Shown here one piece after another: positions 10,820 through 37,918 of a DNA stretch of 64,000 bases (its first letter is position 1; each line of letters begins with the position of its first letter). The DNA is taken from positions 327,448 through 391,447 of the forward strand of contig JAQMWT010000044.1 of assembly GCA_029834535.1 (NCBI GenBank), given 5' to 3'. The notes beneath the pieces are model-generated. The model had not been told where the DNA came from. It was given only the letters and a program-made list of their open reading frames with translations, and searched no databases. This DNA comes from Chrysophaeum taylorii (Eukaryota > Sar > Pelagophyceae > Pelagomonadales > Pelagomonadaceae). A program made the translations under genes and the position numbers.

Positions 10820-10912
10820 CTTGGGGTTTAGGGTATTTATTATCTATCACCCCTAAAACTTAACCCTTGTCAAGGCAAAGAGAGAGAGAGGTCCTCCTCC
10901 TCCTCCTCGCAT
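10820..10912. promoter_or_regulatory. Short divergent intergenic region (candidate bidirectional promoter)
   Basis: Only 93 bases separate the start codons of two divergent genes. It holds an AT-rich stretch TATTTATTATC, a GA run and a (CTC)n run next to the ankyrin start. The two genes probably share promoter elements; inferred from geometry alone. Confidence 0.5.
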
Positions 10913-12562
10913 ATGGAGGTGGTTTACGACGACGATTCTATGCGAAACGATAGTTTGGCGCTCTGGATTGCGAGCGCCGACGGTAAAGTCGATGTAGCTC
11001 GCCGCATGCTCGAGCGCGGGGCTCACGTGAACTACGTGGATTATATAGGAAAGTCGTCTCTTTACGTTGCGAGCCAGAACGGTCACGTGGATGTCGTGCG
11101 CCTTCTGCTCGAAGAAGAACACGGGGCCGACGCGAACTTGGTCGACGAGATGGGCGTCTCGATTCTCCTCGTTGCGTGCCGAGAGCGTCGCACTGACGTC
11201 GTACGCCTTCTGCTCGAACGCGGCGCGAACGTCGATCAATCGACCCGCGGACGAATCAAATCCCCGCTTCGCGTAGCGAGCGAGCACGGCGACGTCGATA
11301 TCGCGCGCCTTCTGCTCGAACGCGGGGCCAACGTCAACGAGGTCGCGAGCGATGGGTCGTGGTGTCTTTACGTCGCGAGCCAGAACGGTCACGTTCTGGT
11401 CGCTCGCCTTTTGCTCGAACGCGGGGCCGACCCAAACCAGACCACGATCCGCCGGGCTTCGTCGCTTTACGTCGCGAGCCATAACGATCACGTTCTGGTC
11501 GTTCGCCTTTTGCTCGAGCACGGGGCCGACCCCAACAAGACCACGTTCAGCGGATTCACGTCACTCTACATCGCGAGCCAGAACGGTAACGGTCTGGTCG
11601 TTCGCATTCTTCTCGAGCGCGGCGCCGACGTCAACCAGGTTATGAGGGATGGGTTCACGGCTCTTCGCGTTGCGAGCAAGCACGGTCACGTGGATGTCGC
11701 GCGCCTTCTGCTCGAGCACGGGGCCAACGTCAACCAGGTCGACGAAGAAGGCGCCTCGTCTCTTCACGTCGCGAGCGAGAAGGGTTGCCTCGAGGTTGCG
11801 CGCGTTCTGCTCGACCGCGGGGCCGCCGACGTAAACCAGGTCGCTCTCAACGGCTTCTCGCCTCTTCACGTCGCGTGCCAGAACGGTCGCGTCGACGTAG
11901 CACGCCTTCTGCTCGAGCACGGGGCCGACGTAAACCAGGCCGCGAGCGACGGCTTCGCGTCTCTGCACGTCGCGGCCCGAAACGGTCACTTTCTGGTCGC
12001 TCGCCTTTTGCTCGAAGAACACGGGGCCAATGTCAACCAGGTCACGAAGCACGACGTCTCGTCTCTTCACATTGCGACCCAGAACGGTCGCGTCGACGTC
12101 GCGCGCCTTTTGCTCGAACAACGCGGCGGGGCCGACGTCGACGCGGTGACGAACGGAGGACAATCGTGTCTTCACGTCGCGAGCCGCAAAGGATATCACG
12201 ACATCGTGCGCATTCTTCTCGAGCACGATGCGGCGCCGAACCGCGCGGATGACGAGGGGTTCACGCCTCTTGCGCACGCCTGCACGAATGGCCGGGTCGA
12301 GACCGCGAGAGTTATTCTCGCTCGCCTGCGCGACGTTCGTCGCGACGCGACGACCAACGCGAGGTCGATTCTTTACGTCCTGCACATGCGTGGCTTTTTG
12401 CGGGGTCTGCCGTGGCTGCCGTACGCAGACACGACGCATGTGGTTTTCAGTAGTCAACAACCTCAAAGTCTTCGCGACTTGGCCTCGAATCACCCGGCTA
12501 TCGTACGACTTCTCGACGACGACCGAGTCGCCCGCCCCTCCAAGCGCGCCAGGCGACAGTAG
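10913..12562 (+). CDS. Ankyrin-repeat protein (about 14 repeats)
   Basis: Intronless, 549 residues. From residue 12 to about 480 it is an uninterrupted series of 33-36 residue ankyrin repeats with the usual pattern (xxLHVASxNGHxDVARLLLExGADVNQV). I count fourteen, plus a partial last one. Some repeats carry an extra residue (LLLEEHGA, LLLEQRGGA), which slightly bends the solenoid. The repeats are very alike even at base level, suggesting recent internal duplication. The C-terminal 70 residues are non-repetitive and end in the basic PSKRARRQ, a possible nuclear signal. Ankyrin solenoids bind other proteins; no enzyme or membrane domain is attached, so the partner is unknown. It is divergent from the histone-fold/AP2 gene. 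Confidence 0.92.
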   Translation: MEVVYDDDSMRNDSLALWIASADGKVDVARRMLERGAHVNYVDYIGKSSLYVASQNGHVDVVRLLLEEEHGADANLVDEMGVSILLVACRERRTDVVRLLLERGANVDQSTRGRIKSPLRVASEHGDVDIARLLLERGANVNEVASDGSWCLYVASQNGHVLVARLLLERGADPNQTTIRRASSLYVASHNDHVLVVRLLLEHGADPNKTTFSGFTSLYIASQNGNGLVVRILLERGADVNQVMRDGFTALRVASKHGHVDVARLLLEHGANVNQVDEEGASSLHVASEKGCLEVARVLLDRGAADVNQVALNGFSPLHVACQNGRVDVARLLLEHGADVNQAASDGFASLHVAARNGHFLVARLLLEEHGANVNQVTKHDVSSLHIATQNGRVDVARLLLEQRGGADVDAVTNGGQSCLHVASRKGYHDIVRILLEHDAAPNRADDEGFTPLAHACTNGRVETARVILARLRDVRRDATTNARSILYVLHMRGFLRGLPWLPYADTTHVVFSSQQPQSLRDLASNHPAIVRLLDDDRVARPSKRARRQ

Positions 12563-13925: not shown

Positions 13926-15160
13926 ATGCCTCTGGTTGCCGAGCCGAAGTCGTCCGAGGACGACGTGACGTACTTGGTCCGAAAGATCCGGAAAGTGCTG
14001 CGGACCGAGGCGAAGAGCGAGTCTTTGAGGTCCTTGTTCCGGGAGCTGGACAGGAACGGCGACGGATCGATCACTGCCCTCGAGTTCAGGAAGGGACTCC
14101 GAGACCTTGGATTTCGGCTCGACGAGTTCGAGGTGACCGAGCTCGTGCGGCACTGCGATCTCAACGGCAACGGCTGCGTCTCGTTCCGGGAATTCGAAGA
14201 CTTTGTCAACTGCAGGACGATGCGCGATAGAGACGCGCGAGGCGGCGTCGACGCTGCTCGTTAGGCTCACCAAGCTGTTGTTGTTGTTGTTGTTGTTGTT
14301 AGCCTCATCGAAAAGATAGACGCCTCGACTCGGAAACCGCGTAGGTGCAAGAAGTGCTCGACCGGCTCGGCGAAATCGTGGAAAAGAAGTACTCGTGGCG
14401 CGGGATGCAGGAAGCGTTCGAGGAATTCGACGCCGACTTTTCGGGCGAGATTGATGCCGAGGAAATGCATGAAGGCCTGCGAAAATTCGGCATCACGTTG
14501 AGCGTCGCCGAAGCCGAACGAGTTCTGGCGCGGTTCCCCGGGGACGGGCGCCGCGTGCGGTACCGGGACTTCGTCGCGGCGATGAGCGGCAGGCCCCCGC
14601 CGTTTTACGCGGGGGCGCGAACGGCGACATACGCGATACGGCGGCTGGCCCAAGAAGTCGAGCGATGCTCCAGAACCAAAACGGGCTACGACGTTCGGAA
14701 GGTCTTCGAAGATCTGGACGAAGACGGCTCGGGAAGCCTCGACAGACGCGAAATCCGCGTCGCCCTCGAGCGCATCGGTGTTTCCCTCACCCGCTCAGAA
14801 CTCATGGGCGTCATGGACTTTTTTGGAGGTAATCCTATCGACGTCGCGACTTTCACTCAGTTCGCGCTCCGCGAAGATCCCGGCACCAAACAACTTCTAA
14901 ACCTAGTGCGCCGCGAGCTCGACCGCCTCTCCGAAAGGAACCGGGGACCTCCCGACTACCGCGGTGCCTTCCGCGAACTCGACGCCGACGCTTCTGGCAC
15001 GATTGACCACTTCGAGTTCAAGACGGCAATGCGCAACCTCGGACTCCGCCTCTCCTCCGCCCAAGTCCGGCAGATCATGTGCATGTTCGACGCCAACGGC
15101 GACAACCGGATCTCCTGTCGCGAGTTCGTCGAATTCCTCGAAGCTAAGAACTTTGATTAA
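13926..15160 (+). CDS. Multi-EF-hand calcium-binding protein (four EF-hand pairs)
   Basis: Two adjoining reading frames, 13926-14264 and 14345-15160, form one repetitive protein. The start at 13926 has a good eukaryotic context (AAAGGATGCC). Each roughly 90-residue module is a pair of EF-hands with a leading helix. Loops seen: DRNGDGSITALEF, DLNGNGCVSFREF; DADFSGEIDAEEM with a degenerate partner; DEDGSGSLDRREI with a degenerate partner; DADASGTIDHFEF, DANGDNRISCREF. So six loops look able to bind calcium and two (in modules 2 and 3) have lost ligands. The first frame stops at 14262 and the next opens right after a TAG at 14342-14344. An intron of about 100 bases ending at that AG, containing a (TTG)n run at 14276-14300, would join them in phase (candidate donor near 14247). 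Calmodulin/centrin-like regulatory role; targets unknown. Confidence 0.85.
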
Positions 15161-25762: not shown

Positions 25763-26075
25763 TGCAGAGAAATCTACTGCCTCTTACCCTTATCCGTCCG
25801 TTGAGAACGTGATCTCTTCCTTACCCTTCTTCTTCCTCTCTACACAGTCCTCAATTAGTCCTCTGATTCGTGCTCAAGCTCATCATCATGGTCTAGCGCG
25901 TCCCGAGGTATGTAGCACTATACACTTTCGTGTAGTTCTAGATGCCGCCTGTCGTGTTCTGAGGATGTAGGGAACATAACCTTTCATTCCCCGAATTTAA
26001 TAATACTTCCAGACGTTCATGATGAGACGGGGTGGTTTTCCAGGTGACTTACCACTGCATGCTAAATGCTCTGCA
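25763..26075 (+). repeat. 5' LTR of the copia element
   Basis: 313 bases, starting TGCAGAGAAATC and ending TGCTCTGCA; the first and last seven bases are a perfect inverted repeat. Aligns along its whole length with 37593-37918, with scattered substitutions and small indels (roughly nine bases in ten alike by eye). Confidence 0.9.
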
Positions 26076-26089
26076 GGTTATGGGCCCAG
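26076..26089 (+). other. Primer-binding site, initiator tRNA-Met anticodon arm
   Basis: GGTTATGGGCCCAG begins at the first base after the LTR. It is complementary to CTGGGCCCATAACC, the anticodon stem-loop of eukaryotic initiator tRNA-Met. From memory, Drosophila copia uses the same internal site, priming from a cleaved half-tRNA. Confidence 0.8.
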
Positions 26090-26613
26090 GCGGGTCCCTG
26101 AGAAACCATGTGTTAAAACGTGCACGTAACCACCTATGGGTTTTGGACTGTTACCGCGCCGGTCCAGCCTCGACATGGAGACACCCTTGTCAATATAACG
26201 CCACTAACATAGGGCTGTATATAGCATATTTTGCTCGCGTAATCGTGTAACAACCTTGTGTGCAGCTGTTCATAGTATCGTATTGTCATGTTAATGTTGA
26301 TGTGTGTGTAAGTTGGCTAACCTGTACTCTTGCACACATGTTATGGAATATTTTGGGTACGTCCACTCGTACATTCCATGGCAATGCACCTAACAAGCTC
26401 CCTGAGAGCAATAAAAATAACCAGCTGCCATGAGTGACTACGCTTAGCGACACTACTCTGGACTCACATCTTGCACAGTTGTCAAATAGACATTTATTTT
26501 CATCGATAACGGACCATGAGTGTACGTAGACACCGATAGATAGACAGACCCCCTTAGAATGTCTAGACAGTGTCAACTGCGTGACTGAACCCACAGGTTC
26601 CCCGTCAACTGCC
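26090..26613 (+). other. Untranslated leader of the copia element
   Basis: No open frame. Aligns with the leader of the truncated copy (19930-20409, minus strand), so it is a conserved part of the family. Could hold RNA packaging or dimerisation signals; nothing specific identified. Confidence 0.5.
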
Positions 26614-28317
26614 ATGGCAGAACACGCAGCACGAGCCGCACCCAAGGCGATCACAGGTGCGGATATATTGAAGCTCGAAACTCCTGTAGTTGAGTTTCTC
26701 AGCGAAGGAAATCGATTTCAGCTTCAGACCCGCAAGGTATCCTTGTAAATTAAACATATCAAGCAATTATTACGGTCCAGTCATGCCGATGCCTTCCTCG
26801 AGTACGACTCGTACGAAGCATACACTCGGTCATGCAAGGACTACGAGATCCTCCGGAATCAAATTCTCGATCGCGTTTTCCTGGAATGGAAGACCGATAC
26901 GGCTGCTGATCTCCGTTTAGCTGTTGATGAATTGCCCCCTGAGTATCAGGAATGGCACTTCACCAATGAAGCTTTCCCCAACTTACCTGACGCAGGAGTA
27001 CCTCAGCTACCTACTGTCTGTTGCGACAATGAAGTCAAGGCATTACGCCCTGAAATCAATGATCGTTTCTTAGAAGAGGAACAAATATTAAATCGCGCGC
27101 ACCCGAAAGCATTAGCTTTTGACACCCGTGTTCGTGCCCCTGTTACTGTGTTTTCGCTAACTGCTGCTGACTGGCACACTTATCAGAACACGTATGCTAC
27201 ATTCTTGCATACTTACTTCAATCTTGAAAGCGTTGGAAAACCAGCACTTGCTGCCTGGCCCGCCATCAATGAGGTATGTAACAAAAGTTATTTACCCAAC
27301 AAGGCTCTCGAGCCATTATGCTCATTGCCTTTAGCCACTACGAGTCTGTTACGACTACTGATGTGTCCTACTTGAAACAGCAGTTTTACTCTGTTGTTTA
27401 TAATCCTAACTGGTATGTCCATGTATTTATCGAAGCTGTCCTAGCATTCAGCCAAATCTCTTACCAACTTAACCAGGAAGAGACTGACCTTCAATTCGAC
27501 TTTGGTACTCTTTGTAGAAAAAAAAATTATGAAGAGATACATCGGCATTATGCCGATAATACCAGCAACAATCGTTACGATCGTGGTTGGGTAGATTGGT
27601 GTTATATGTATGAAACCCGATCTTCATCTCGACCTGTGCCAGACGCTGAACGATTGTGTCACCCCACCAACCCTACGCATTAGACTTATATAATGTAGTA
27701 TCAAATGGGTCGAACAAAAGACGCTTAGAACGCCCTGTTTCTTGGCAACCCTACGTCGAAGGATTGACACCACAACCAAAGCCAAAACTACTACTGACCA
27801 ACACGCTGGATTTATCAGACAAAAATCTGACTCAAACTGCAAACACACTCGCGTCCATTACTTCTTCTCAACCTGGAACATCCTCCGCGTTTAACGCTAG
27901 ACGCTAGCGTAACTCTAATGATGCTCGCCAGCCTTTCTCTCGCAGTGACCTATCGTATTATCGTTCTGTTGATTCTTATGTCACCAAGAAACTGCTGGAC
28001 AGTCCCATGACCGTCCAATTTACCCTCGCACTTTCGACAGGTCCTCTCGATCTACCATGAAATTATTAGATCGAACGAAGCACGCCTTAAATACTACACT
28101 GCAAGAGCAGTGTAGTGAACTTACGAAACATGTGACAGATAATGATATCACGGCTCAGCTACAACAGAACATCACCAAGTTACTTGAGACTCTGTTGCAA
28201 TCCGCTGATATTCTGTCAACGACATCTACTGATGACAATAGTGACTTAATTCGCCTAAACGAACAACTCATGTTCGCAGAAGACATCATTTATGATGTAG
28301 ACGTTCATCTATCCTCG
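26614..28317 (+). pseudogene. gag: copia Gag region
   Basis: The start at 26614 has a strong context (GCCATGG) and the frame runs MAEHAARAAPKAITG... to a TAA at 26746. It then continues in the same frame (DAFLEYDSYEAYTRSC, YEILRNQILDRVFLEW) to about 27310, moves to another frame (27318-27683), and returns near 28057 for a helical segment up to the first processing motif at 28318. The position after the leader, the conserved block shared with the truncated copy and the absence of enzymatic motifs identify it as Gag, the capsid-forming part. I did not see a CCHC zinc knuckle, which many copia Gags have. Stop and frameshifts show decay. Confidence 0.65.
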
Positions 28318-28338
28318 ACCGAAAAGTCGTTAAACTAC
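28318..28338 (+). other. Repeated TEKSLNY motif 1 (Gag/protease junction)
   Basis: ACCGAAAAGTCGTTAAAC then TAC, translated T-E-K-S-L-N-Y. It lies between the Gag helix region and the protease. Candidate self-processing site. Confidence 0.6.
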
Positions 28339-29055
28339 GTGGAGCCACAACATCATACTGTTGCTACTGCTCCCACCCCAACGGCAACTCCTCCTACTAC
28401 AGATACCAAGAATGCCTCCAACACACAGGGTAATCCCTCCGATATTGTGCCTAACTTCTTTACTGCTTCCGCCATCTCGGCGTTACCACCAGCGTTACTG
28501 TCCTCGCTATCTTCACAGGTCAAATCAGCCATTAACCAACCACCACAAGCCGAAACCACAAGGGATGTCGATCAGACCTCGCTATCATTATTTGATGAGA
28601 AGCACGGCATGGCTGATGAGGCTGACGAACCATCACCACCTGTTCAACCGATTATCATTCCAAATCACTTGTTATTTCTGGAGAACTTCTTCACTGCCAG
28701 CCTCTCCACTACTTGCCCACATTCGGAAAATGCACTTCTAACCAAATATATGAAGGTAAACAGTGTCCCCCAACATTGTTCCTTTTTATATTTTGACTCT
28801 TGTGCTACCATATCATTGATGTCCACATACGATTTTAAAATACCAAATCATATTATTCCACTGGATTCCAAATACGCGCCGATTATCATACAAACCGTCA
28901 CTGGACAACAACGTGCCTCACATATGATGCTAAAACGTAATATAGTTGTTCCCCTACCAGATCATCCACAAACCGGCTACGTCAAGATTGAGTTCGCCTT
29001 ATGTCTTCAGCCAGTGCACAATCGACATCTCGCTATCCTGAGCATGCTCGAGTGA
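28339..29055 (+). pseudogene. copia aspartic protease
   Basis: After a Pro/Thr-rich spacer the frame gives LYFDSCATISLMS, with the catalytic Asp at 28795-28797. The usual retropepsin triplet is DSG or DTG; here it reads DSC, so either a tolerated variant or a mutation. Downstream residues (VTGQQRASHMMLKRNIVVPL, then FALCLQPVHNRHLAILS) fit the flap and C-terminal strands of a copia protease, which works as a homodimer to cut Gag-Pol. The frame ends with TGA at 29053. The next coding segment (29060-29400) leads into the methyltransferase with no processing motif visible between, so protease and methyltransferase might stay joined. Confidence 0.65.
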
Positions 29056-29414
29056 AACCAGACGAACTTGACCACTGTGTTCAATGATCGATCTGCGCAA
29101 AAGCTCAGCGCTGTCACGAGCCGCATAGACAAAGATGTGCGTATTCCCATACACTACGTAGCAGCTAATTTACCTGCTCTCCCTTGTCTCACCTACAACA
29201 TCGCTCGCGACAAGCAACTCGAACTACGCTCCCTCGCATTTCCGCTCAACCGATACCACGAAAACAGGGATCTACTGACACATATTACAACTATCTCCTC
29301 AAGAGAGTTTTACCAGATCGCCCGTGGATTCGCCCTTTGGTTCTTAATCTTCGGAAACAGAACAAGTTCGTCCAGCAAAACACTCCGCCGTTAACATGAA
29401 TACTTTCTTGCTCA

Positions 29415-31160
29415 GTGTTTCTCTCACAAGAGCCCGATCTTCGCACACCCTCTGTCATGTTGCTCTGTTCTGGTTTGTCAACCCCAGCGTTCCTGTCTCA
29501 AGACACTAATGACCTAGGCTTAAATATCAATGTAAAAGTTGTTGTTGAGTCTGATGATACGCTTGTGCGCATGTTACGCCACCGTTTTCCTACAGCATTA
29601 TTATTTGAATCTTTACCCACCTTTATCAACCATCTTCACCTAATCTCACCAGAGGAAAGGCGCAAATTTTATTGCGATATTATTGAGATCACTTCTCCCT
29701 GCACCAACAGGAATCTACTAAAGCAGCATAAGACCGAAGACTTACACAGCCTTCTCGACGACTCTCTGTTTGACAGCATGCTGTCTGTCATCAAACTTCT
29801 CCAACCCTTGGTACTACTGGCTGAGGTGACACCACCCCACAAGTACTGACATCAAGACCACATAAGCGTCGCCAATCTCATCCATGCCACACTCGATTAC
29901 TGTGCCGATGTTGTTGACAGGTTCCCGACCTACCTCTGTGGCGACTACCAATCTAGGGAAAGGATGGACCTGCATCGCACGCAGGTATTCTACTGGACCA
30001 ATCAACATACTGTCTTGGCATATCCACCATCCACGCCCCTTCCTTAAGATCGTGGATGACATACAAGCCATTCCTAAGCGACTTTGGCTATCCAAACATA
30101 CCGCCAAAGGTTGGATCCGGGTGTTCCCCGATCCTCCATATGTCCCCGTTCCTAAAGCTTTTGCACCTTACTCTCGCACAGGTTCTGTTCAGCTTACTAT
30201 GACTGACCTTGAAACACTCAATATGTTGTTTTTGCGCCGTCACTCACAACAGGCTCACGAGCAACGCACGCACTCTGTTCAATCCGAGTGTACTTACCAT
30301 CAGCTGTGTTTCAAACGCTCCTCCATGGATCCGCTGCCTCATGCAACTAACCCACTGCATGTCAAGGCTTTTACCATCCTCTGTAACGTGTTTGCCAGAT
30401 TGCACACTAACTCACCCACTCCTGTGTCCTATTACATAACCGTTTTCGAAACTGACCAACCGTCAGTCACATAGGTTACTACTTACAACCTCATCAACAT
30501 CCCATAATACCTACTTCCTAACCGGCGGCCACCATTCTGACGGCAACCTCACCATAGAAAACGCCGCCACCAAATATCATGCTTGCATTGACGCGTTTGG
30601 AAGCACGTATACGTTTACTGCCTCCAACGTCCCCCGCGACAGAGACAGGTCTATATATTTGGAGCCGTTTATGGGTTACTTGTGGATAATCCAACCCCTT
30701 CCTCAAGTTGGCTCCGCTGCCACCTATGGCACCGCCATACAAAAGCTCTTGTCCAGATGCTCCCTTGTGATGCCTGGCTGCCTTACCTACAAGGCCACCA
30801 ACAATTCTTTCGACTACAAGGATTCTCATTTTGCTCTGGAAGATCACCACTTATCTCATAGTCGCTATATAGGGTATCTTCGTGGAAGTGACACCAAACT
30901 CGGCTCTAAAATCCACTCCATGCTTGCTCCATTGCCTACCGTCCGCGGATATGCAAACATTATCTTATTACTCGACCTTCGCAACGGGAAATTACGCTAT
31001 CCCACTCGACCGGAGTTGATTCGTGCTAACTAACCACACCAAACAACAGGAATCTTTCCTCTTGTCTCTTCGCCACGACCTTTGCTGCGACATGCTCAGC
31101 AATGCTCTGCCTGCCGGTACGTACAGCACACTGTACAAGCACCTTTCGCTCCTCGTTGCC
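29415..31160 (+). pseudogene. Cytosine-C5 DNA methyltransferase domain within the copia polyprotein
   Basis: Motifs of C5 methyltransferases appear in order. Motif I (AdoMet binding) VMLLCSGLSTPAF at 29454-29495. An acidic motif II-like VVVESDD near 29545. Motif IV ITSPCTNRN with the catalytic Pro-Cys, Cys codon at 29700-29702. Motif VI LLAEVTPP with its Glu at 29823-29825. Motif VIII DYQSRERM at 29943-29966 (QSRER is the hallmark). After about 1 kb that would be the target-recognition region come motif IX (GKLRYPTRPELIRA, 30985-31026) and motif X (LSNALPAGTY, 31092-31122). Family enzymes methylate C5 of cytosine in DNA. Two consensus residues differ (PCQ is PCT, ENV is EVT). A TGA at 29847 and frame changes near 30046, 30480 and 31020 show this copy is inactive. 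Similar captures by retrotransposons have been reported in other algae and dinoflagellates. Confidence 0.78.
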
Positions 31161-31328
31161 GATATTAAATCCCTTATGTTGGACCCTACCTTCCAACATA
31201 CTGCTGCCGTGACGAAGAAATCCTATGTATCCAACTTCATGACCTTTGATCCGGCCTCCACCACGTGCAGCACAGATACCTTGTCTTTGGCACAGGCCTT
31301 TATGGCGTCTATCTCCTGCAATTGCTTG

Positions 31329-31349
31329 ACCGAAATGTCGTTAAACTAT
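31329..31349 (+). other. Repeated TEMSLNY motif 2 (methyltransferase/integrase junction)
   Basis: ACCGAAATGTCGTTAAAC then TAT, T-E-M-S-L-N-Y, located between methyltransferase motif X and the integrase zinc-binding domain. Confidence 0.6.
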
Positions 31350-33484
31350 ATATCTTCGTCCTACGAAGATACTCTCGCTACTCGTGATGATGAGGATGCA
31401 CCTCCAAGTGACCCTGCTGCGCACCAGGATGACGACGCACCACCTCCTCCTGCCTTGGACACCGAACTCAAGTTCGATGTTCGGCGCAAACGTCATATCC
31501 CCGCTCATCCCATTCCTCGCAAATCCTTCGCACACGGATCTGCTGAATACCTCAACGCCAAAGAACGTGCCAATCGCTTCCACCGGGTGCACCACTGCCC
31601 CGACAACGTCGCAGCCAAGGCCCCCAACGTACTGGCTCGCCCTGGCTTCTCTGCCTCCGACCTACCGTATCGCGACTTATGCACCGACTGCATCGCACAT
31701 AACAAGCGCCACCCGCACAAGCACTTCAATCCGACCAAGCCCTCTTTTGAGCAAACTCACAAAGCCGGCGAAGTCTGGGCGTGCGACGGCGGCTATGTGA
31801 CAATTCCATCAGAATGGGGAGGCTTCACACATATTATTGTGTTCAAAGAACTTATCTCGAAGTTTCTCTTGGTGTACTTTACACGCACCACCAACGCCAC
31901 GGAGTTCGCTCAAGCTCTAGACTTTGTGTATGACTTTTGTCGTACACAAATCAACGTGCACATGCGCACCCTCTAGTCAGATGCCTTCAAGCCCTATTTT
32001 AGCCAGCACATTACCTCCCCGTACCGCGTCGATAAGGGCATTCAGCTCATCGCTTTCCGTACATGCACCACTTTAACTTTGAAGTCGAGTTAGCCATCGG
32101 CTTCATCGCCTCCGCCTCCTCAACTCGCCTTCGTTCTCTCCTTCATGCTCATTATCGTAGCTCAAAGATCGTGGAGCGCGCTATCATGTTTCCCTGGGCG
32201 GTAATACACACCATCCAAAGCTACAACCTTCTCCCGAACGCCACGCTCGAGCGCATTCACCATGCTATCCTGGGTCCGCAACAGCTACTCTACAACCAAC
32301 TAAACACCCCCCAGCATGACATGCTCAAGATCTTCGGCGCTGAATGCTACCTTCTATTGGAACCCCACGAGCACCACAAGTGGGAACCGTGCCGCCGCAA
32401 ATATCTGTATCTCTGTTGCGCCAACGCACAAAACCCGCTCGTCTCCCCACGTGTTGACCATATTGCCGACGTCGTCCTCAACCCTGAAAACGGACAAATT
32501 CGTGTTTCGTCCAAGCTGCAATTTCTCTACATGCTCCAGCATCCTACTCCTGATCCTGAACTTGCTCCTCCGCCTCACGCTCCTCCCACGCCTTTCTCGC
32601 TCACACCCCACGCTGCTATCCAAGACCATGTCATTCAGAGGGGGACACGGACACTTCATCCTCAGAGGGGGCACTCTCCACCTCACTCAGCTCCTTCTTC
32701 ATCCCCTGCTCCTGCCTCTCTTCACATTTCCGACGCTCCCGTCGACGAATCTGGCTCTATGCCACCGCCGCCCTTGCTTCCTTCTTACAAAGACCTTTTC
32801 TCACAAGATGACCTCATTCTTGTCCCAGGTTCCAAACAACCTAACACCCGCAAGGCAACCTCCATGAAAAATATCCAAGCCCGGCTGCAAGCGTCTACTA
32901 TTGGTGCTTACGCTGGTGGCAAACTCGCCGATTCCCGCTGGGATCTTCGCCACCACTTTCTTACGTTCAAGTCTCCCGCCCTCTCCGCCCTTCATATCAA
33001 TGGTGGTATCCTGTGGTCTGCTATCTGCTCAGAGGGGGAACATGCGTTGTTAGCTCGTCTCCTTCTCCCGTTGCGCACTGACTTAATAGCCCGTCACCCT
33101 CGCGTCGATGGTTACTTCGCCCACGCTAAGTGCGCATCCAGCATCCCAGCCGCCACCTTTCTAACTGCTGATGGCTCACCTACGTGCCCCATTCCTCAGC
33201 CTCTCTTAGCTGCGTTCACTGAACACGCTGCTGCCTTTGGCATCTCTTCCTTATAGTATGCACTTACGTATCTGGCGCCGACCAGCTTTATCGATCACAA
33301 CTCTTCCGAGTTCGGCGCTAATTCTGCATCTCTGTCTGACTTGGAGGAATACCTCCTGGTCTCTACAGAGTATATCACCCAGGTCTCACATGCCGACCCT
33401 ACTATCCATATCCAACTGAAATCTGCCCCTACTACTCCTACTGACGCTGTTTCCGCTCATCCCGAAGTTGCGCACACGGCCTCG
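31350..33484 (+). pseudogene. copia integrase
   Basis: After an acidic Pro-rich spacer, the zinc-binding (GAG-pre-integrase) domain reads RFHRVHHC...DLCTDC (31575-31691). The catalytic core begins EVWACDGGY with the first Asp at 31785-31787, followed by FTHIIVFKELISKFLLVYF. A TAG at 31974 interrupts just before the second Asp (SDAFKPYF). After a frame change near 32050 the core resumes (KIVERAIMFPWAVIHTIQSYNLLPN) and the C-terminal GKK-like region follows (EPHEHHKWEPCRRKYLYLCC). A long Pro/Ser/His-rich stretch, as in copia integrase C-termini, runs to about 33256. Integrase inserts the cDNA into the host genome; this one cannot be made intact. Confidence 0.75.
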
Positions 33485-33505
33485 AACGCAACGTCGCTAA
33501 ACTAT
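33485..33505 (+). other. Repeated NATSLNY motif 3 (integrase/RT junction)
   Basis: AACGCAACGTCGCTAAAC then TAT, N-A-T-S-L-N-Y, between integrase tail and reverse transcriptase. Confidence 0.6.
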
Positions 33506-35414
33506 AATTCACCAGCCATTGTTGGTCCTGACGAATATAAGGTCCAAGAAGCGGACGTTTCCATTGACGAATATAAACTTAAGTGCCTCCACGGTATGTC
33601 GCCTGAAGACAGGCACGCCTACCTCAAGGCCATCGCCAAGGAACTCCACGACATTATCCGCTTTGGCTGCTTCAAACTTTCATTACCCGACAGTGTCTCT
33701 CGCCCTATTGACAGCAGGATGGTGCTGAAGATTAAAACAGACTCTGCAGGCAAATACGTTAAGCACAAGGCCCGCCTCGTGCTACTTGGCTTTCTAGCAT
33801 CCCTTGGCGCCGATTTCTTTGGCACCTTCAGCCCAATGGCCACAATGACCGCAATCCGGGTACTACTGGCTATTGCAGCATACAAGCAATTGCCTGTCTA
33901 CCAAGCAGACGTCCCGAACGCCTTCGTTCAGTCTGACATTGATGCCAACGTCTATGTTCAGTTACCAGACGGCATCAAGCTTATCGACCCCGATGACGCT
34001 AAGTACAAGGGCCGACGCCTACCGAAACTGCTGAAGTCACTTTATGGACTTCGTCAATCGCCATCTCTTTGGAACAAAGAGATAGACGGCTTCTTCCGTA
34101 GCCTTGGCTACAAGCGCCTGCATTCGGACTCTTGCCTATATGCTCGAGTATCCGCACATGCTAAGTTCGTCGTATGCAGTCTGTCTGTAGACAACATTGT
34201 TGTTGTGTCCAATGATAACAATTCTTCGTACTGAGTTACAGGATGCCCTCCACCAACGGTATGCTGTAGAGCAGTTTGAACCTGTCCATACCCTCCTAGG
34301 CATGCGTGTGTGTCGCACATCTGATGGATCCATTTCCCTGGATGTGCAAGCCAAGCTTGATGAACTCTTCGCTGATCATCCTGTCTTGCAGCAACTAACC
34401 CCGCTTAAATATTCAATGTCCTCGTCTTTCAAGTATAAAGATGGCACTCCCAGCTCTGAAACAGAGTTGTACATCAACTCGCACTTTGCCACCCTCCTTG
34501 GCAAGCTGGTGTTCTTGCAAGTGGCCTGCAGACTTGACTTCTCGCAAGCCTTGGGCAGATGTTCGCGTGGTATGCATGCACCCAAGTATGTTCGCGTTCA
34601 AATGCTAGAGCACCTGCTCCGCTACCTGAGGAAGCCCGAAAACCGCTCACTTCGCCTCTGGTTCCATCCTAAAGGTAATGCTATTGAAGCTCACCTTCGC
34701 ACTGTTTCCGCTAATCGAATTGATCTTTCCACTGTGGTTGACTACCAACCGCAGGATGTGTCCACTGGACAGTTTGATCCCTTAGTTGCCATGGTTGACG
34801 CTGACAACGCCCCTTCCATAGCACAGGAAGATAGGAAATCTACCGCCGGGTTTGTCTTCTATCTTTTCAACTGCCTTATTGGTTGGAAAAGCACGCTTCA
34901 ACCGATTGTCTCCTGCTCAACTCACGAAGCTGAGTTGATTGCCCTCAGTGTTTGTGCTGATGAAGCTGTTTGGCTACGCAAGCTGCTGTTGGAACTCTCC
35001 TTTGCCGTCAACCCCACCTTTTACGTCAACAATGTTAACGGTGAGAACACCGCTGATCCTGTTCATTTCGATGACAATGACAACCCAATTGCTGAAGATA
35101 TGCGCTTCATCAGAAGCCTACCTCTCTTGTCTGACAATGCTGCTGCTGTTCACACCTCTAATAACCCAGATGGATCCTCTCGATCCAAGGCAGTGTCGAC
35201 CAGATGGTTTAAGATCCGTGAGTACATCTCGCTACAGAAAATTCGAGTCCATCATGTTCCCGGCAAGCTAAACGTGCCTGATGGTTTTACAAAGCCACTT
35301 GCTGCTGAGTTCTCCATTTTTCGTTCTCTACTCGGTATGCATCATGCCTCTGACGACAAGCCTCTACAGGATAGAAGATGCCTAACGCTAGTGACCGCAA
35401 CGTCGTTAAACTAG
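33506..35414 (+). pseudogene. copia reverse transcriptase and RNase H
   Basis: RVT_2-type reverse transcriptase. Landmarks are the YKVQEADVS spacer, RMVLKIKTDSAGKYVKHKARLV, GADFFGTFSPMATMTAIRVLLAIAA (written here in parts of under 20), and motif A VYQADVPNAFVQSDID with its Asp at 33908-33910. KSLYGLRQSPSLWNKEID follows. The active-site box normally YVDD reads SVDN (34184-34195), so the second catalytic Asp is lost. The frame shifts near 34230. RNase H follows: DADNAPSIAQEDRKSTAG, STHEAELIALS, LSDNAAAVHTS and VHHVPGKLNVPDGFTKPL, with the acidic residues kept. The frame ends at 35412-35414 with TAG at the last position of the fourth SLNY motif. Confidence 0.85.
35394..35414 (+). other. Repeated TATSLN-stop motif 4 (end of RNase H)
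   Basis: ACCGCAACGTCGTTAAAC then TAG, T-A-T-S-L-N-stop. In the other four copies the last codon is TAC or TAT (Tyr), so the stop differs by one base. Confidence 0.6.
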
Positions 35415-35469
35415 CCCTGGCCCTACCTTCTTTTGCCACAAATTTTTTGTACGTGTGTGAGTGTTGCTC

Positions 35470-37446
35470 ATGTCCTTTTCTTGGCACTCCCGTGGCCGCG
35501 GCATCTCCCCAGTCGTTCGAAGGACAGTCCCACGCCCGCTCTCCACGGCCGAACCTTCTCCCAGGTTGTCGAAAAAGCGACAACCTATGACCGCTGTTAC
35601 TGCTACCCCACAGGCTGCTGCTGTTGCACCGACACCAGCCGAAAATATCTTACCTCAATCGCTAACGCTCCAGGACGGCCTCAGCATGGACTATGCTTTG
35701 TACGAACGAGGAATCTCTCTCCTTGAGAACTTCCGTGTCCCTGTCACCCCATTTCTCTCTTCTTTTATGCGAGTGGAACTCATCTCAGCCCTACACTCTG
35801 TCTATGAGTCTACTGACTTTTCATTGTTTGTGGAACTGACCACATTCATATCCATGCGCTTACCCATTACTATACCTTGGGAAGCTGCTCCTGCTATTGC
35901 TTCTATTGGCTGCTACAGAGGCCCCAAACGCGAACGTTTCATTTTGTCGTCCTTTTGTACGCAATGCCTTACTGATCTTGGACAACCGACTTTCCTCGTC
36001 TCGACCACGTACAGTTCCAAGGCACAAACACCTCGTGAACTTCCCACTGAAGTGCTGAGTCATCTCAACACGGACGACCATAAGAAGAATGGTCACATCC
36101 CCATCTCTGCTATTACTATGGGTATGTGCTTTGTTTGTCACAATACTGGTCAGGTGCCTATACAACCTACTGTATGTGCTCGCAATGATACTTCCTTCCA
36201 ATTCCCTTGTGATGCGCGCTCAGCTGGTCATATACGCGCTACCCTCATACGCATCTATCATTTGCCAAGGGAGTTATATACTCTTTTGACAAGTATACTA
36301 GCACAACACCCGTCACTTGTTAACTTGGTCTTATCTGTATCCGCTCTGGCCACAACAGATCCTACTACACAATGGCCATTCGCACTGGATCTTCGGCTTA
36401 TAACACAGATGCACCTTGAGCATCTTAATTTCCTTGTGACCCTTGTTCGAACACAGAGTCGCAAAGCTCAGGCTATGTTCAAGCCCTCCAAATTCCAACC
36501 TGTGGTTACCACAGTTGCCCAATCGTGGGTACAACATCTTGACGACTACGTATCATCTTCAGATGATACAAAACCGCCGTCACTCCTGGATGTAATGTTC
36601 GGCCCCACTTATACTCAGGCAGAACACCAAGACTTTCTGCGCTTTTTAAACGCGAAACACCCCCTACTTGCACAGCATGTGTTGACCGAAACGTCGTTAA
36701 ACTACTCAATCTCCACATCAGACCCAACTCTGGAGATGTCTTCGCCATCGACACACCCTGCGCCTTCTGCCTCGCTTGATGATGTCGATGCCTTGCGTCA
36801 ACAAGTCGAACAACCCCAGGAAACTCTTCGTCTACACATCCGCAAGGTCAACATTCTCAGTGCTGAGAATCAATCTCTACGCACAGATCTACAGGCTGCC
36901 ATTGCTTCAATCACCTCCCTGGAGAACCGGCTCTTACCTCCTACAGCCAACGCGCACGTGTTACTTATAACACTGTACAAGATCACAGAGCTGTTGTCTC
37001 GCTTAACTCTTAGCGCTCATGACCAATATGCCGCCAACCACTCCTCCCAGGACGATCACCTCCTTCATCTGCGTGACAAGTTGCTCTCGTGTATTCAGAG
37101 CATCCCATTCGCATGTGAATCGGAAGACTCTTCTATCTTCTCGGATCCGTTCGCTGAGTCCAACTTCTTGGAAAACCAACTGGACACCCTGCAACTTGAC
37201 TCGCTGGTGCCATCCATACTGAATGCTTTACTTGCACTCACGTTTCGCGTGGTACCACACCATTCTGCTATTGGTGTTCACCACCTTACAGCAGAAGCTG
37301 ACGACGACGATACCGATACTCTCGAACCAGTAACGATGTTCACCACCTCAGATAGCCTTAACACACTGTCTGTCGTACCTGTGTTTCGTAATGCTCTGTT
37401 CAAAAGCGTCAAGTCGACTCTCAGCTCCACCAAGTCCACGCCCTAA
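35470..37446 (+). CDS. Novel two-module ORF downstream of RNase H in the copia element
   Basis: The longest intact frame of the element, about 658 codons from the ATG at 35470 (the ATG at 35587 is an alternative). I do not recognise it. The N-terminal module (to about 36684) is helical with two Cys pairs (FCTQC near 35955 and MCFVCH near 36125) that could form a zinc site. The motif T-E-T-S-L-N-Y at 36685-36705 then separates a second module with a coiled coil (LRQQVEQPQETLRLHIRKV, then SLRTDLQAAIASITSLENR) and an acidic region (AEADDDDTDTLEP). No signal peptide or membrane helix, so it does not look like an envelope protein. Its lack of stops, while Gag and Pol are broken, is notable. It may be released from the polyprotein or translated separately. 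Confidence 0.7.
   Translation: MSFSWHSRGRGISPVVRRTVPRPLSTAEPSPRLSKKRQPMTAVTATPQAAAVAPTPAENILPQSLTLQDGLSMDYALYERGISLLENFRVPVTPFLSSFMRVELISALHSVYESTDFSLFVELTTFISMRLPITIPWEAAPAIASIGCYRGPKRERFILSSFCTQCLTDLGQPTFLVSTTYSSKAQTPRELPTEVLSHLNTDDHKKNGHIPISAITMGMCFVCHNTGQVPIQPTVCARNDTSFQFPCDARSAGHIRATLIRIYHLPRELYTLLTSILAQHPSLVNLVLSVSALATTDPTTQWPFALDLRLITQMHLEHLNFLVTLVRTQSRKAQAMFKPSKFQPVVTTVAQSWVQHLDDYVSSSDDTKPPSLLDVMFGPTYTQAEHQDFLRFLNAKHPLLAQHVLTETSLNYSISTSDPTLEMSSPSTHPAPSASLDDVDALRQQVEQPQETLRLHIRKVNILSAENQSLRTDLQAAIASITSLENRLLPPTANAHVLLITLYKITELLSRLTLSAHDQYAANHSSQDDHLLHLRDKLLSCIQSIPFACESEDSSIFSDPFAESNFLENQLDTLQLDSLVPSILNALLALTFRVVPHHSAIGVHHLTAEADDDDTDTLEPVTMFTTSDSLNTLSVVPVFRNALFKSVKSTLSSTKSTP
36685..36705 (+). 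other. Repeated TETSLNY motif 5 (inside the 3' ORF)
   Basis: ACCGAAACGTCGTTAAAC then TAC, T-E-T-S-L-N-Y, the sequence nearest the consensus. Divides the 3' ORF into a Cys-containing module and a coiled-coil module. Confidence 0.6.
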
Positions 37447-37585
37447 GACACCCTTCTATACTCTCGATGCTTCATATGTGACCTCTGCGACCATCAAGAC
37501 TGTATTGTCCTTTTTTTTCTTTCCTTCATCATCATCTTTCTCAAGAGATGCTCTACAGTCGCACCTCGAGCGCTTAAGACATCTC
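37447..37585 (+). other. Non-coding spacer before the 3' LTR
   Basis: T-rich (a run at 37510-37518) with ATCATCATC; no coding content. Confidence 0.4.
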
Positions 37586-37592
37586 GAGGGGG
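37586..37592 (+). other. Polypurine tract
   Basis: GAGGGGG sits immediately before the TG of the 3' LTR, the position where plus-strand DNA synthesis is primed. Short but well placed. Confidence 0.6.
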
Positions 37593-37918
37593 TGCAGAGA
37601 AATCTGCTGCTGCCTCTTACCCTTATCCGTCCGTTGAGAAAGTGATCTCTTCCTTACCCTTCTTCGTCCTCTCTATACAGTCCTCAATTAGTCCTCTGAT
37701 ATTTGTGCTCAAGCTCATCATCATGGTCTAGCGCGCGCCCCGAGGTATGTCTATACACTTAACCCCTTTCTCGAGTAGTTCTAGATGCCGCCTGTCGTGT
37801 TCTGAGGATATAGGGAACATAACCTTTCATTCCCCGAATTAAATACTTCCAGACGTTCATCATGATGACGGGATGGTTTCCCAGGTGAGTTGCACCACTG
37901 CATGCTAAATGCTCTGCA
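37593..37918 (+). repeat. 3' LTR of the copia element
   Basis: 326 bases, TGCAGAGAAATC to TGCTCTGCA. The length difference from the 5' LTR comes from small indels (for example GCTGCTGCC against CTACTGCC, and an extra stretch near 37757). Confidence 0.9.

Follow-up and report, generated by a model that had tools for sequence, protein, structure and literature searches.

Retrotransposons with cytosine methyltransferases are already known: LINE, DIRS, and Gypsy elements that carry DNMTs have been published (PMC5890265, used here in excerpt), and, as an initial annotation of the DNA studied below had noted, they come from dinoflagellates and a charophyte. According to the same excerpts, CG methylation by a retrotransposon DNMT has been shown experimentally, de Mendoza et al. 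argue that SymbioDIRS-Dnmt3 methylates cDNA in the particle, and in Symbiodinium, where Copia is the retrotransposon superfamily of highest abundance, its members have no DNMT domain (PMC5890265). A single sentence in the excerpted text of PMC12344493 assigns DNMT3 members to "LTR Copia and DIRS" elements, with PMC5890265 (2018) as its source. Beyond that sentence, a copia element with a C5-methyltransferase is undescribed in the literature that we searched, which was mostly open access and partly in excerpt, and none is described in the excerpts of PMC9998398, PMC12477816, PMC6338049, PMC3145265, and PMC5670126. A copia carrier is hardly, if at all, known.

We analyzed a 64,000-nucleotide stretch of Chrysophaeum taylorii contig JAQMWT010000044.1 (referred to here as the window; coordinates are window based unless a locus or contig is named). 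Judged from its sequence, the element in the window belongs to a high-copy Ty1/copia family, termed A; in this family and in two others, B and C, a predicted methyltransferase stands after the protease and before the integrase. The conserved TGA, ORF3, and the two other families described below are additions to the initial annotation. The setting is a small genome with an abundant element and several comparable families.

Structure of the element in the window

The region at 29415-31160, which the initial annotation had read as a cytosine-C5 methyltransferase built into a Ty1/copia polyprotein, falls inside an LTR element of ~12.2 kb (25763-37918), whose parts all lie on the plus strand in the order gag, protease, methyltransferase motifs, integrase, reverse transcriptase (RT), RNase H-like end, ORF3, and LTR. 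The 5' LTR (25763-26075, TGCAGAG...CTCTGCA) and the 3' LTR (37593-37918) were found by BLAST against each other, with their ends read from the sequence, and a purine-rich tract, CTCGAGGGGG, stands just before the latter. In the window copy, to which these LTR observations refer, the pair aligned by BLAST at 89%, the alignment of 333 columns containing 17 mismatches and 19 gap positions, and the LTRs are direct and have the TG...CA ends that serve as a Ty1/copia criterion. This copy, whose LTRs have diverged, has no target site duplication (TAGGC before, GAAGC after); Ty1/copia membership is compatible with the loss of the duplication. Directly after the 5' LTR, we read a putative primer binding site, GGTTATGGGCCCAGG (26076-26090), which would be complementary to the anticodon arm of initiator tRNA-Met; a genome search with a 19-base pattern of this arm gave 8 matches, which are candidate tRNA loci only.

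The gag and protease region (26749-29055) is broken across frames 1, 3, and 1, as judged by eye against copy L069. Its active-site motif, DSCAT (28795-28809), was recognized by motif reading, had no Pfam match, and is presumably that of an aspartic protease. An in-frame TGA codon (29397-29399), which is kept across family A, marks the boundary between the protease side and the methyltransferase. The catalytic part of the predicted methyltransferase (29400-29963) follows, then an ~350-codon stretch at the position of a target recognition domain (29964-30994), which is broken in the window copy, and then motifs IX and X (30995-31112), which are kept in most of the copies examined. The integrase (31581-31976; rve, E = 0.0068, below the curated cut-off) comprises an HHCC motif (31581-31691) and the start of the catalytic core, with the first catalytic Asp at 31779-31799, and is followed by an SH3-like domain (32306-32425; PF25597, E = 5.4e-5, below the curated cut-off). 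The copia-type RT (33683-34219) matched PF07727 (RVT_2) at E = 4.6e-36, and the RNase H-like end of pol (34797-35414) was identified by eye from the motif DADNAPSIAQ...STAGF, without a Pfam match. Taken together, the LTRs and an integrase that precedes an RVT_2-type RT bear out the Ty1/copia assignment; the same order, with rve under its cut-off, was found in L069, L071, L075, and the window copy.

Between the RNase H-like end and the 3' LTR lies ORF3 (35461-37446), a frame of 661 amino acids that is open in the window copy. It has 72 matches in the genome, 15 of which, the window copy included, span residues 4 to 656 or more without an internal stop, and a Pfam search with it gave no significant family. 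ORF3 occupies the position where some elements have env-like genes.

Elsewhere in the window, a 7,082-amino-acid open frame on the minus strand (38906-60151) was seen by eye to consist of repeated LamG-like units with PSxxPS-type linkers, its internal frames repeating at 882-base steps, and ankyrin-repeat-like and EF-hand-like frames were noted by eye on the plus strand (10832-12559 and 14345-15157).

Methyltransferase motifs in the window copy

Motifs I (CSGLSTPAF, 29466-29492), IV (TSPC, inside 29691-29714), VI (LLAEV, 29814-29837), VIII (QSRER, 29949-29963), and X (SNALP, 31098-31112) are encoded in frame 3, and motif IX (RYPTRPEL, 30995-31018), in frame 2, is the sole one outside it; motifs IX and X were identified by eye. 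All six were thus found in the order that the initial annotation had claimed, between 29466 and 31112, and their placement between protease and integrase holds as well, with DSCAT before them and the HHCC motif after. The window methyltransferase is disrupted by a frame 3 stop (29847-29849), after which it continues as fragments in frames 1, 2, and 3, and none of the 10 window pieces scanned with Pfam matched PF00145 at E ≤ 10. The window copy is a decayed member of its family.

Three families of related copies

When the initial methyltransferase piece of the window, 149 amino acids long, was searched against the genome (70.8 Mb), at least 150 matches were obtained, the window included, based on scoring of the best 150 of 821 first-look candidates. 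Among the matches listed, those other than the window are 81 to 94% identical to the query, and an internal stop is absent from 135 of the 150 and present in 15. The sister copies that the initial annotation had proposed to look for therefore exist, and in four longer-frame family A copies (L010, L026, L069, and L070) motifs I to X stand in a single frame, which in L069 is 1,691 amino acids long. Motif IV in these four copies is PPC, not SPC, and individual motif residues deviate in L010 and L070.

Family B was discovered by a PF00145 profile search of the genome, which gave 57 matches. L001 and L002, the two top-ranked ones, resemble host genes; for three of the remaining matches (L003, L004, and L006), the surrounding frames were inspected. 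L001 holds a free-standing Dcm-like C5-methyltransferase of 360 amino acids (L001:1498-2580; PF00145, 69.6 bits), beside which a light-harvesting-like protein was seen by eye on the opposite strand; this protein and the host DNMT5-like gene described below would suit a secondary-plastid alga, for instance a stramenopile or a haptophyte. In family B, L071 has a 1,952-amino-acid single frame with DGGAS, PF00145 (E = 1.1e-7, 32.1 bits), rve (E = 0.0061, under the cut-off), and RVT_2 (E = 1.6e-38) in that order. Family C, which is defined from one copy (L075) and a match list, has a domain of the same kind, with 52% identity to family A over the aligned part and with rve (under the cut-off) and RVT_2 downstream.

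Matches in the genome number at least 150 for family A, at least 151 for B, and at least 131 for C, together at least 432 in 70.8 Mb; these totals are lower bounds on matches and not element counts, since some B matches are fragments of one copy. When the best 150 of 1670 first-look RVT_2 candidates were scored and the sequence 3 to 7 kb away was searched, an A or C methyltransferase match was found 3.4 to 6.3 kb upstream on the same strand at 70 of the 150 RT hits (48 with A and 23 with C, one of them with both; median distances of 4.5 and 4.3 kb, respectively). Controls on the wrong side or strand gave 0 matches for A and 2 for C. The 80 unpartnered RTs do not amount to 80 elements lacking the domain, because the methyltransferase lists are lower bounds and do not include family B.

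Identity of the domain

The methyltransferase identity of family B can be regarded as established at the level of sequence comparison. Relative to the curated PF00145 cut-off of 22 bits, L071 scored 32.1 and 34.4 bits, and 9 of 9 aligned B rows, two of which are the same copy, matched the profile. Family B also matched TIGR00675 (dcm) at E = 3.1e-8 with 33.6 bits, under the 100.65-bit cut-off of that profile, as well as phrog_363 (E = 1e-8) and an archaeal-virus methyltransferase (tblastn, E = 3e-6). The initial annotation had named the lack of a significant PF00145 or methyltransferase match, in the segment or in intact sister copies, as the result that would speak against its reading; the search was run, and sister family B gave a PF00145 match at E = 1.1e-7. 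The proposed PF00145 comparison thus succeeded for family B and for an outside relative described below, P0002, and failed for the window pieces and for single A and C sequences, as 5 of 5 of the latter had no match.

For families A and C, the methyltransferase identity is very probable, and for the window's family A this reading draws on profile comparison and intermediate sequences rather than on a direct Pfam match. L069 itself matched phrog_116 only at E = 0.06. Two outside relatives of family A serve as intermediates that, on their sequence matches, tie it to methyltransferases, both of them matching the same phage methyltransferase profile: P0001 (mmetsp, a transcriptome source; 42% identity over 55% of the query) scored 20.2 bits against PF00145, under the cut-off, and matched phrog_116 at E = 3e-8, and P0002 (ena source, a 9,613-base contig; 39% identity over 39% of the query) scored 23.0 bits, over the cut-off, and matched phrog_116 at E = 4.6e-7.

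We compared the families by hhalign with a reference profile of 12 C5-methyltransferases (ten from phages and two from the host). Family A without the outside relatives matched this profile with 85.3% probability (E = 6e-6); with P0001 and P0002 included, it reached 95.5% (E = 1.4e-8), or 89.5% (E = 2e-6) when the reference consisted of the ten phage sequences only. Family B reached 97.1% (E = 4.8e-11), a figure that is partly circular because three of the ten phage sequences were chosen by their match to B; no phage reference sequence was selected by family A. The controls gave 0.0% for the family A protease/gag part, 0.4% for integrase, and 0.0% for reversed A, and 0.7% was obtained for the family A stretch that separates motif VIII from motif IX.

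A decayed protein whose likeness to methyltransferases consists of chance short motifs would fit the broken state of the window copy and the failure of window pieces and single A sequences to match PF00145, but it would leave the hhalign match with its clean controls, the intermediates P0001 and P0002, the clear sister family B at the same polyprotein position, and the purifying selection described below to coincidence; we regard this explanation as highly improbable. Chance motif matches were rejected, given that the family A profile matches methyltransferases with all controls at ≤0.7%.

The alignment pairs motif I with phage CAGVGG, PC with PC, QSRER with PQRRER, and the Glu of family A motif VI with the E of ENV. 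Motifs I, IV (PC), VI (E), VIII (R), IX, and X are in order, with departures at VI in family A, which has EM (EV in the window) for ENV, and at VIII in family B, where ISKTRY is without the usual Gln. In sequence searches of the PDB at E ≤ 10, the best match of query A1 was a cytosine methyltransferase (E = 0.18), that of query A2 was a ribosomal protein (E = 1.6), and P0002 had no match.

Selection and conservation of residues

Pairwise dN/dS values were calculated by the Nei-Gojobori method with our own code for 32 A and 37 B sequences. In family A, the median was 0.07 for motifs I to VIII (486 of 487 pairs below 0.5), 0.17 for the gag/protease part (464 of 488), and 0.21 for the inter-motif region (450 of 489); in family B, it was 0.15 for motifs I to VIII (662 of 666), 0.19 for the protease part (623 of 663), and 0.23 for the inter-motif region (623 of 665). 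For the short IX-X part, our thresholds yielded no value. Since nearly all of these loci had been selected because they resemble a methyltransferase query, a choice that reduces dN in this domain, we also compared domains in a few elements picked by ORF length or divergence. The methyltransferase, integrase, and RT values were 0.08, 0.05, and 0.07 for L069/L070; 0.21, 0.21, and 0.35 for L071/L072; and 0.15, 0.04, and 0.07 for L071/L074. Two pairs with L073 had high RT values (0.47 and 0.51). The domain is under purifying selection in families A and B, equal to that on integrase and RT in some pairs and weaker in others.

Mean position identity to the reference copy was 0.90 in both families. 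Among the copies examined, the motif IV Cys was retained in all of those from family A (32 of 32) and family B (37 of 37), and the motif VI Glu was retained in 32 of 32 and 35 of 37, respectively. These counts bear on whether the domain has lost methylation and persists as a module for DNA binding or structure, such as an integration guide. The motif departures in A and B and the weak scores of family A on standard profiles would suit such a module, but retention of the presumed catalytic Cys and Glu would not, nor would the stronger constraint on motifs I to VIII than on the inter-motif region (0.07 versus 0.21 in A and 0.15 versus 0.23 in B), and we consider loss of methylation rather unlikely. 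An active methyltransferase remains our preferred reading. With purifying selection on the domain and with the same position, after protease and ahead of integrase, in all three families, what the element gains from a DNA methyltransferase becomes testable.

A conserved TGA codon before the methyltransferase

In family A, a TGA codon was present at 120 of 122 genome matches to a junction pattern in which that codon was left free; the sequence on either side of it was set according to copies already seen, and the window junction, being one base off, is outside the 122. A per-copy listing covered 33 loci, two of which (L037 and L075) had no anchor. TGA occupied the expected codon in 28 of the 31 anchored loci (the exceptions being L032, L038, and L070), and in 27 of these 28 the upstream peptide stayed in frame throughout the listed stretch; in L034, it did so only next to the TGA. 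In contrast, any stop within the 149 codons after the TGA was found in 15 of the 150 matches listed. The codon that follows the TGA varies (CTA, ATA, ATG, or ATC), and because a start codon after the TGA is not conserved, we favor bypass over re-initiation. These observations suggest that the family A TGA is a probable stop-bypass site and mark it as a likely control point of element translation. The one family C copy has TGA-CGC at a similar position. RNA folding of 141 to 142 nucleotides around the TGA, limited to secondary structure without pseudoknots, gave nothing beyond shuffled sequences in 5 of 5 sequences.

In family B, protease and methyltransferase share one frame in L071, and the gag frame overlaps the protease-methyltransferase-integrase-RT frame by 37 bases (L071:2597-2633), upstream of the protease motif. 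This arrangement suggests that B may use frameshifting, where A uses a TGA at a different place.

Proposed function of the methyltransferase

On balance, we think it probable that this copia Pol contains a C5-cytosine DNA methyltransferase, that its synthesis involves stop bypass, and that a packaged extension methylates the element's own cDNA before integration; the confidences that we attach to this explanation and to its rivals overlap. Gag-protease would be the major product, and bypass of the TGA would yield a minor methyltransferase-integrase-RT extension that could be packaged together with Gag. The natural substrate within the particle would be element cDNA, which may be methylated there or in the preintegration complex, ahead of integration, such that a new copy would arrive in the genome already marked.

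C>T changes per site, counted by context in A and B copies, gave no CpG-mutation signature: in family A, the value was 0.0147 for CG and 0.0124 to 0.0207 for other contexts, and in family B, it was 0.0317 and 0.0223 to 0.0354, respectively. The unraised CG value counts against a strong lasting CG mark. CpG observed/expected ratios were 0.78 to 0.96 in the element (six 2-kb bins) versus 1.07 to 1.49 in the other 26 bins of the window, although a lower ratio could also stem from base composition and codon use.

The lack of a CpG-mutation signature would also suit a methyltransferase that targets RNA, either genomic RNA or the primer tRNA, rather than DNA. Some C5-methyltransferase lineages are RNA associated (DNMT2 and DNMT6; PMC12344493, in excerpt), de Mendoza et al. 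raise the possibility for SymbioLINE-Dnmt (PMC5890265, in excerpt), and motif VI of family A differs from ENV. Nevertheless, the domain adjoins integrase and RT in Pol, both of which handle cDNA, and motifs IX and X together with the long inter-motif region suit the layout of a DNA methyltransferase, so that an RNA target seems unlikely to us.

A DNA methyltransferase could alternatively mark chromatin near insertion sites or genome-wide and recruit host silencing, with copies being tolerated; this idea is compatible with methylation of the element's own cDNA and does not exclude it. Marks once set could be maintained by a host DNMT5-like gene on contig C621, where a single open frame of 2,086 amino acids combines a DNA methylase (L002, C621:15462-18998) with a partial SNF2 match (C621:19899-20237), and with this gene methylation maintenance may be possible. 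The copies, however, have no CpG-mutation signature, and we judge chromatin marking to be quite unlikely. Methylation of the element's own cDNA is the reading that we carry forward.

Origin of the methyltransferase

In a tree of the core region, families A, C, and B together with P0001 and P0002 stood apart from the ten phage and two host enzymes with 99/99 support; the stems of A and B are long (1.86 and 1.23), so long-branch attraction is still a possible cause of this grouping. By hhalign, A matched B with 80 to 86% when the outside relatives were included in A, versus 0.5% without them and 1% with earlier, smaller alignments. Because A and B share their position in Pol, a single methyltransferase capture for the two appears to be the simpler reading of these sequences.

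A close donor was not found among phages, IMG/VR, GTDB contigs, or the protein database. In searches against phages, the L071 domain matched 18 records at E ≤ 1 (best E = 3e-6) and P0002 had no match. No confirmed match was obtained in IMG/VR with queries A3 and A1 or in GTDB genome contigs with query A3. In the protein database, the L071 domain had no match at E ≤ 0.001 among the 8000 candidates scored, the L069 domain had one match, and query A3 had two.

A broader proposal, which we put forward tentatively and consider possible but doubtful, is that these elements represent an old copia lineage that several protists share (provided that such elements are also the source of P0001 and P0002), with a packaged, UGA-dosed cDNA methyltransferase that A, B, and C would owe to one capture and that is perhaps unlike known eukaryotic DNMT clades. 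If true, the element would parallel, among retroelements, those phages that modify the DNA of their own genomes.

Comparison with known systems

Tca2 of Candida albicans is a copia-type element. Like family A, this LTR element has a UGA between two polyprotein ORFs that needs to be bypassed, but in Tca2 the UGA lies between gag and pol and is followed by a potential pseudoknot (PMC2194720, in excerpt), whereas the TGA of family A comes after the protease and before the methyltransferase and had no fold signal.

The sentence on Copia in PMC12344493 agrees with our data in naming Copia as a DNMT carrier; it differs in that it concerns DNMT3 and, in the excerpted text, describes no element, and the excerpts of the 2018 paper that it cites report Gypsy.

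Among the characterized systems (all from excerpts of PMC5890265), SymbioLINE-Dnmt resembles the element described here in being a retrotransposon methyltransferase, and perhaps also in falling outside the main DNMT families. It belongs to a LINE, however, with the methyltransferase in an upstream ORF, and CG depletion is reported for it, in contrast to the copies here, which have no CpG-mutation signature. SymbioDIRS-Dnmt3 of Symbiodinium is likewise a C5-methyltransferase in a retrotransposon Pol; retrotransposon DNMTs number in the hundreds in its genome, and purifying selection on its domain resembles that on RT. Unlike the LTR copia element with a DDE integrase studied here, it is a DIRS element with a tyrosine recombinase; it falls in the DNMT3 clade, whereas our core tree compared phage and two host sequences only. 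KnitGypsy-Dnmt3 of Klebsormidium nitens shares with our families an LTR element, a methyltransferase in the Pol ORF, and purifying selection, but it is a DNMT3 in the Gypsy superfamily, whereas the carrier here is copia. With the C. taylorii families, Ty1/copia would join LINE, DIRS, and Gypsy among the retrotransposon groups documented to carry a cytosine methyltransferase.
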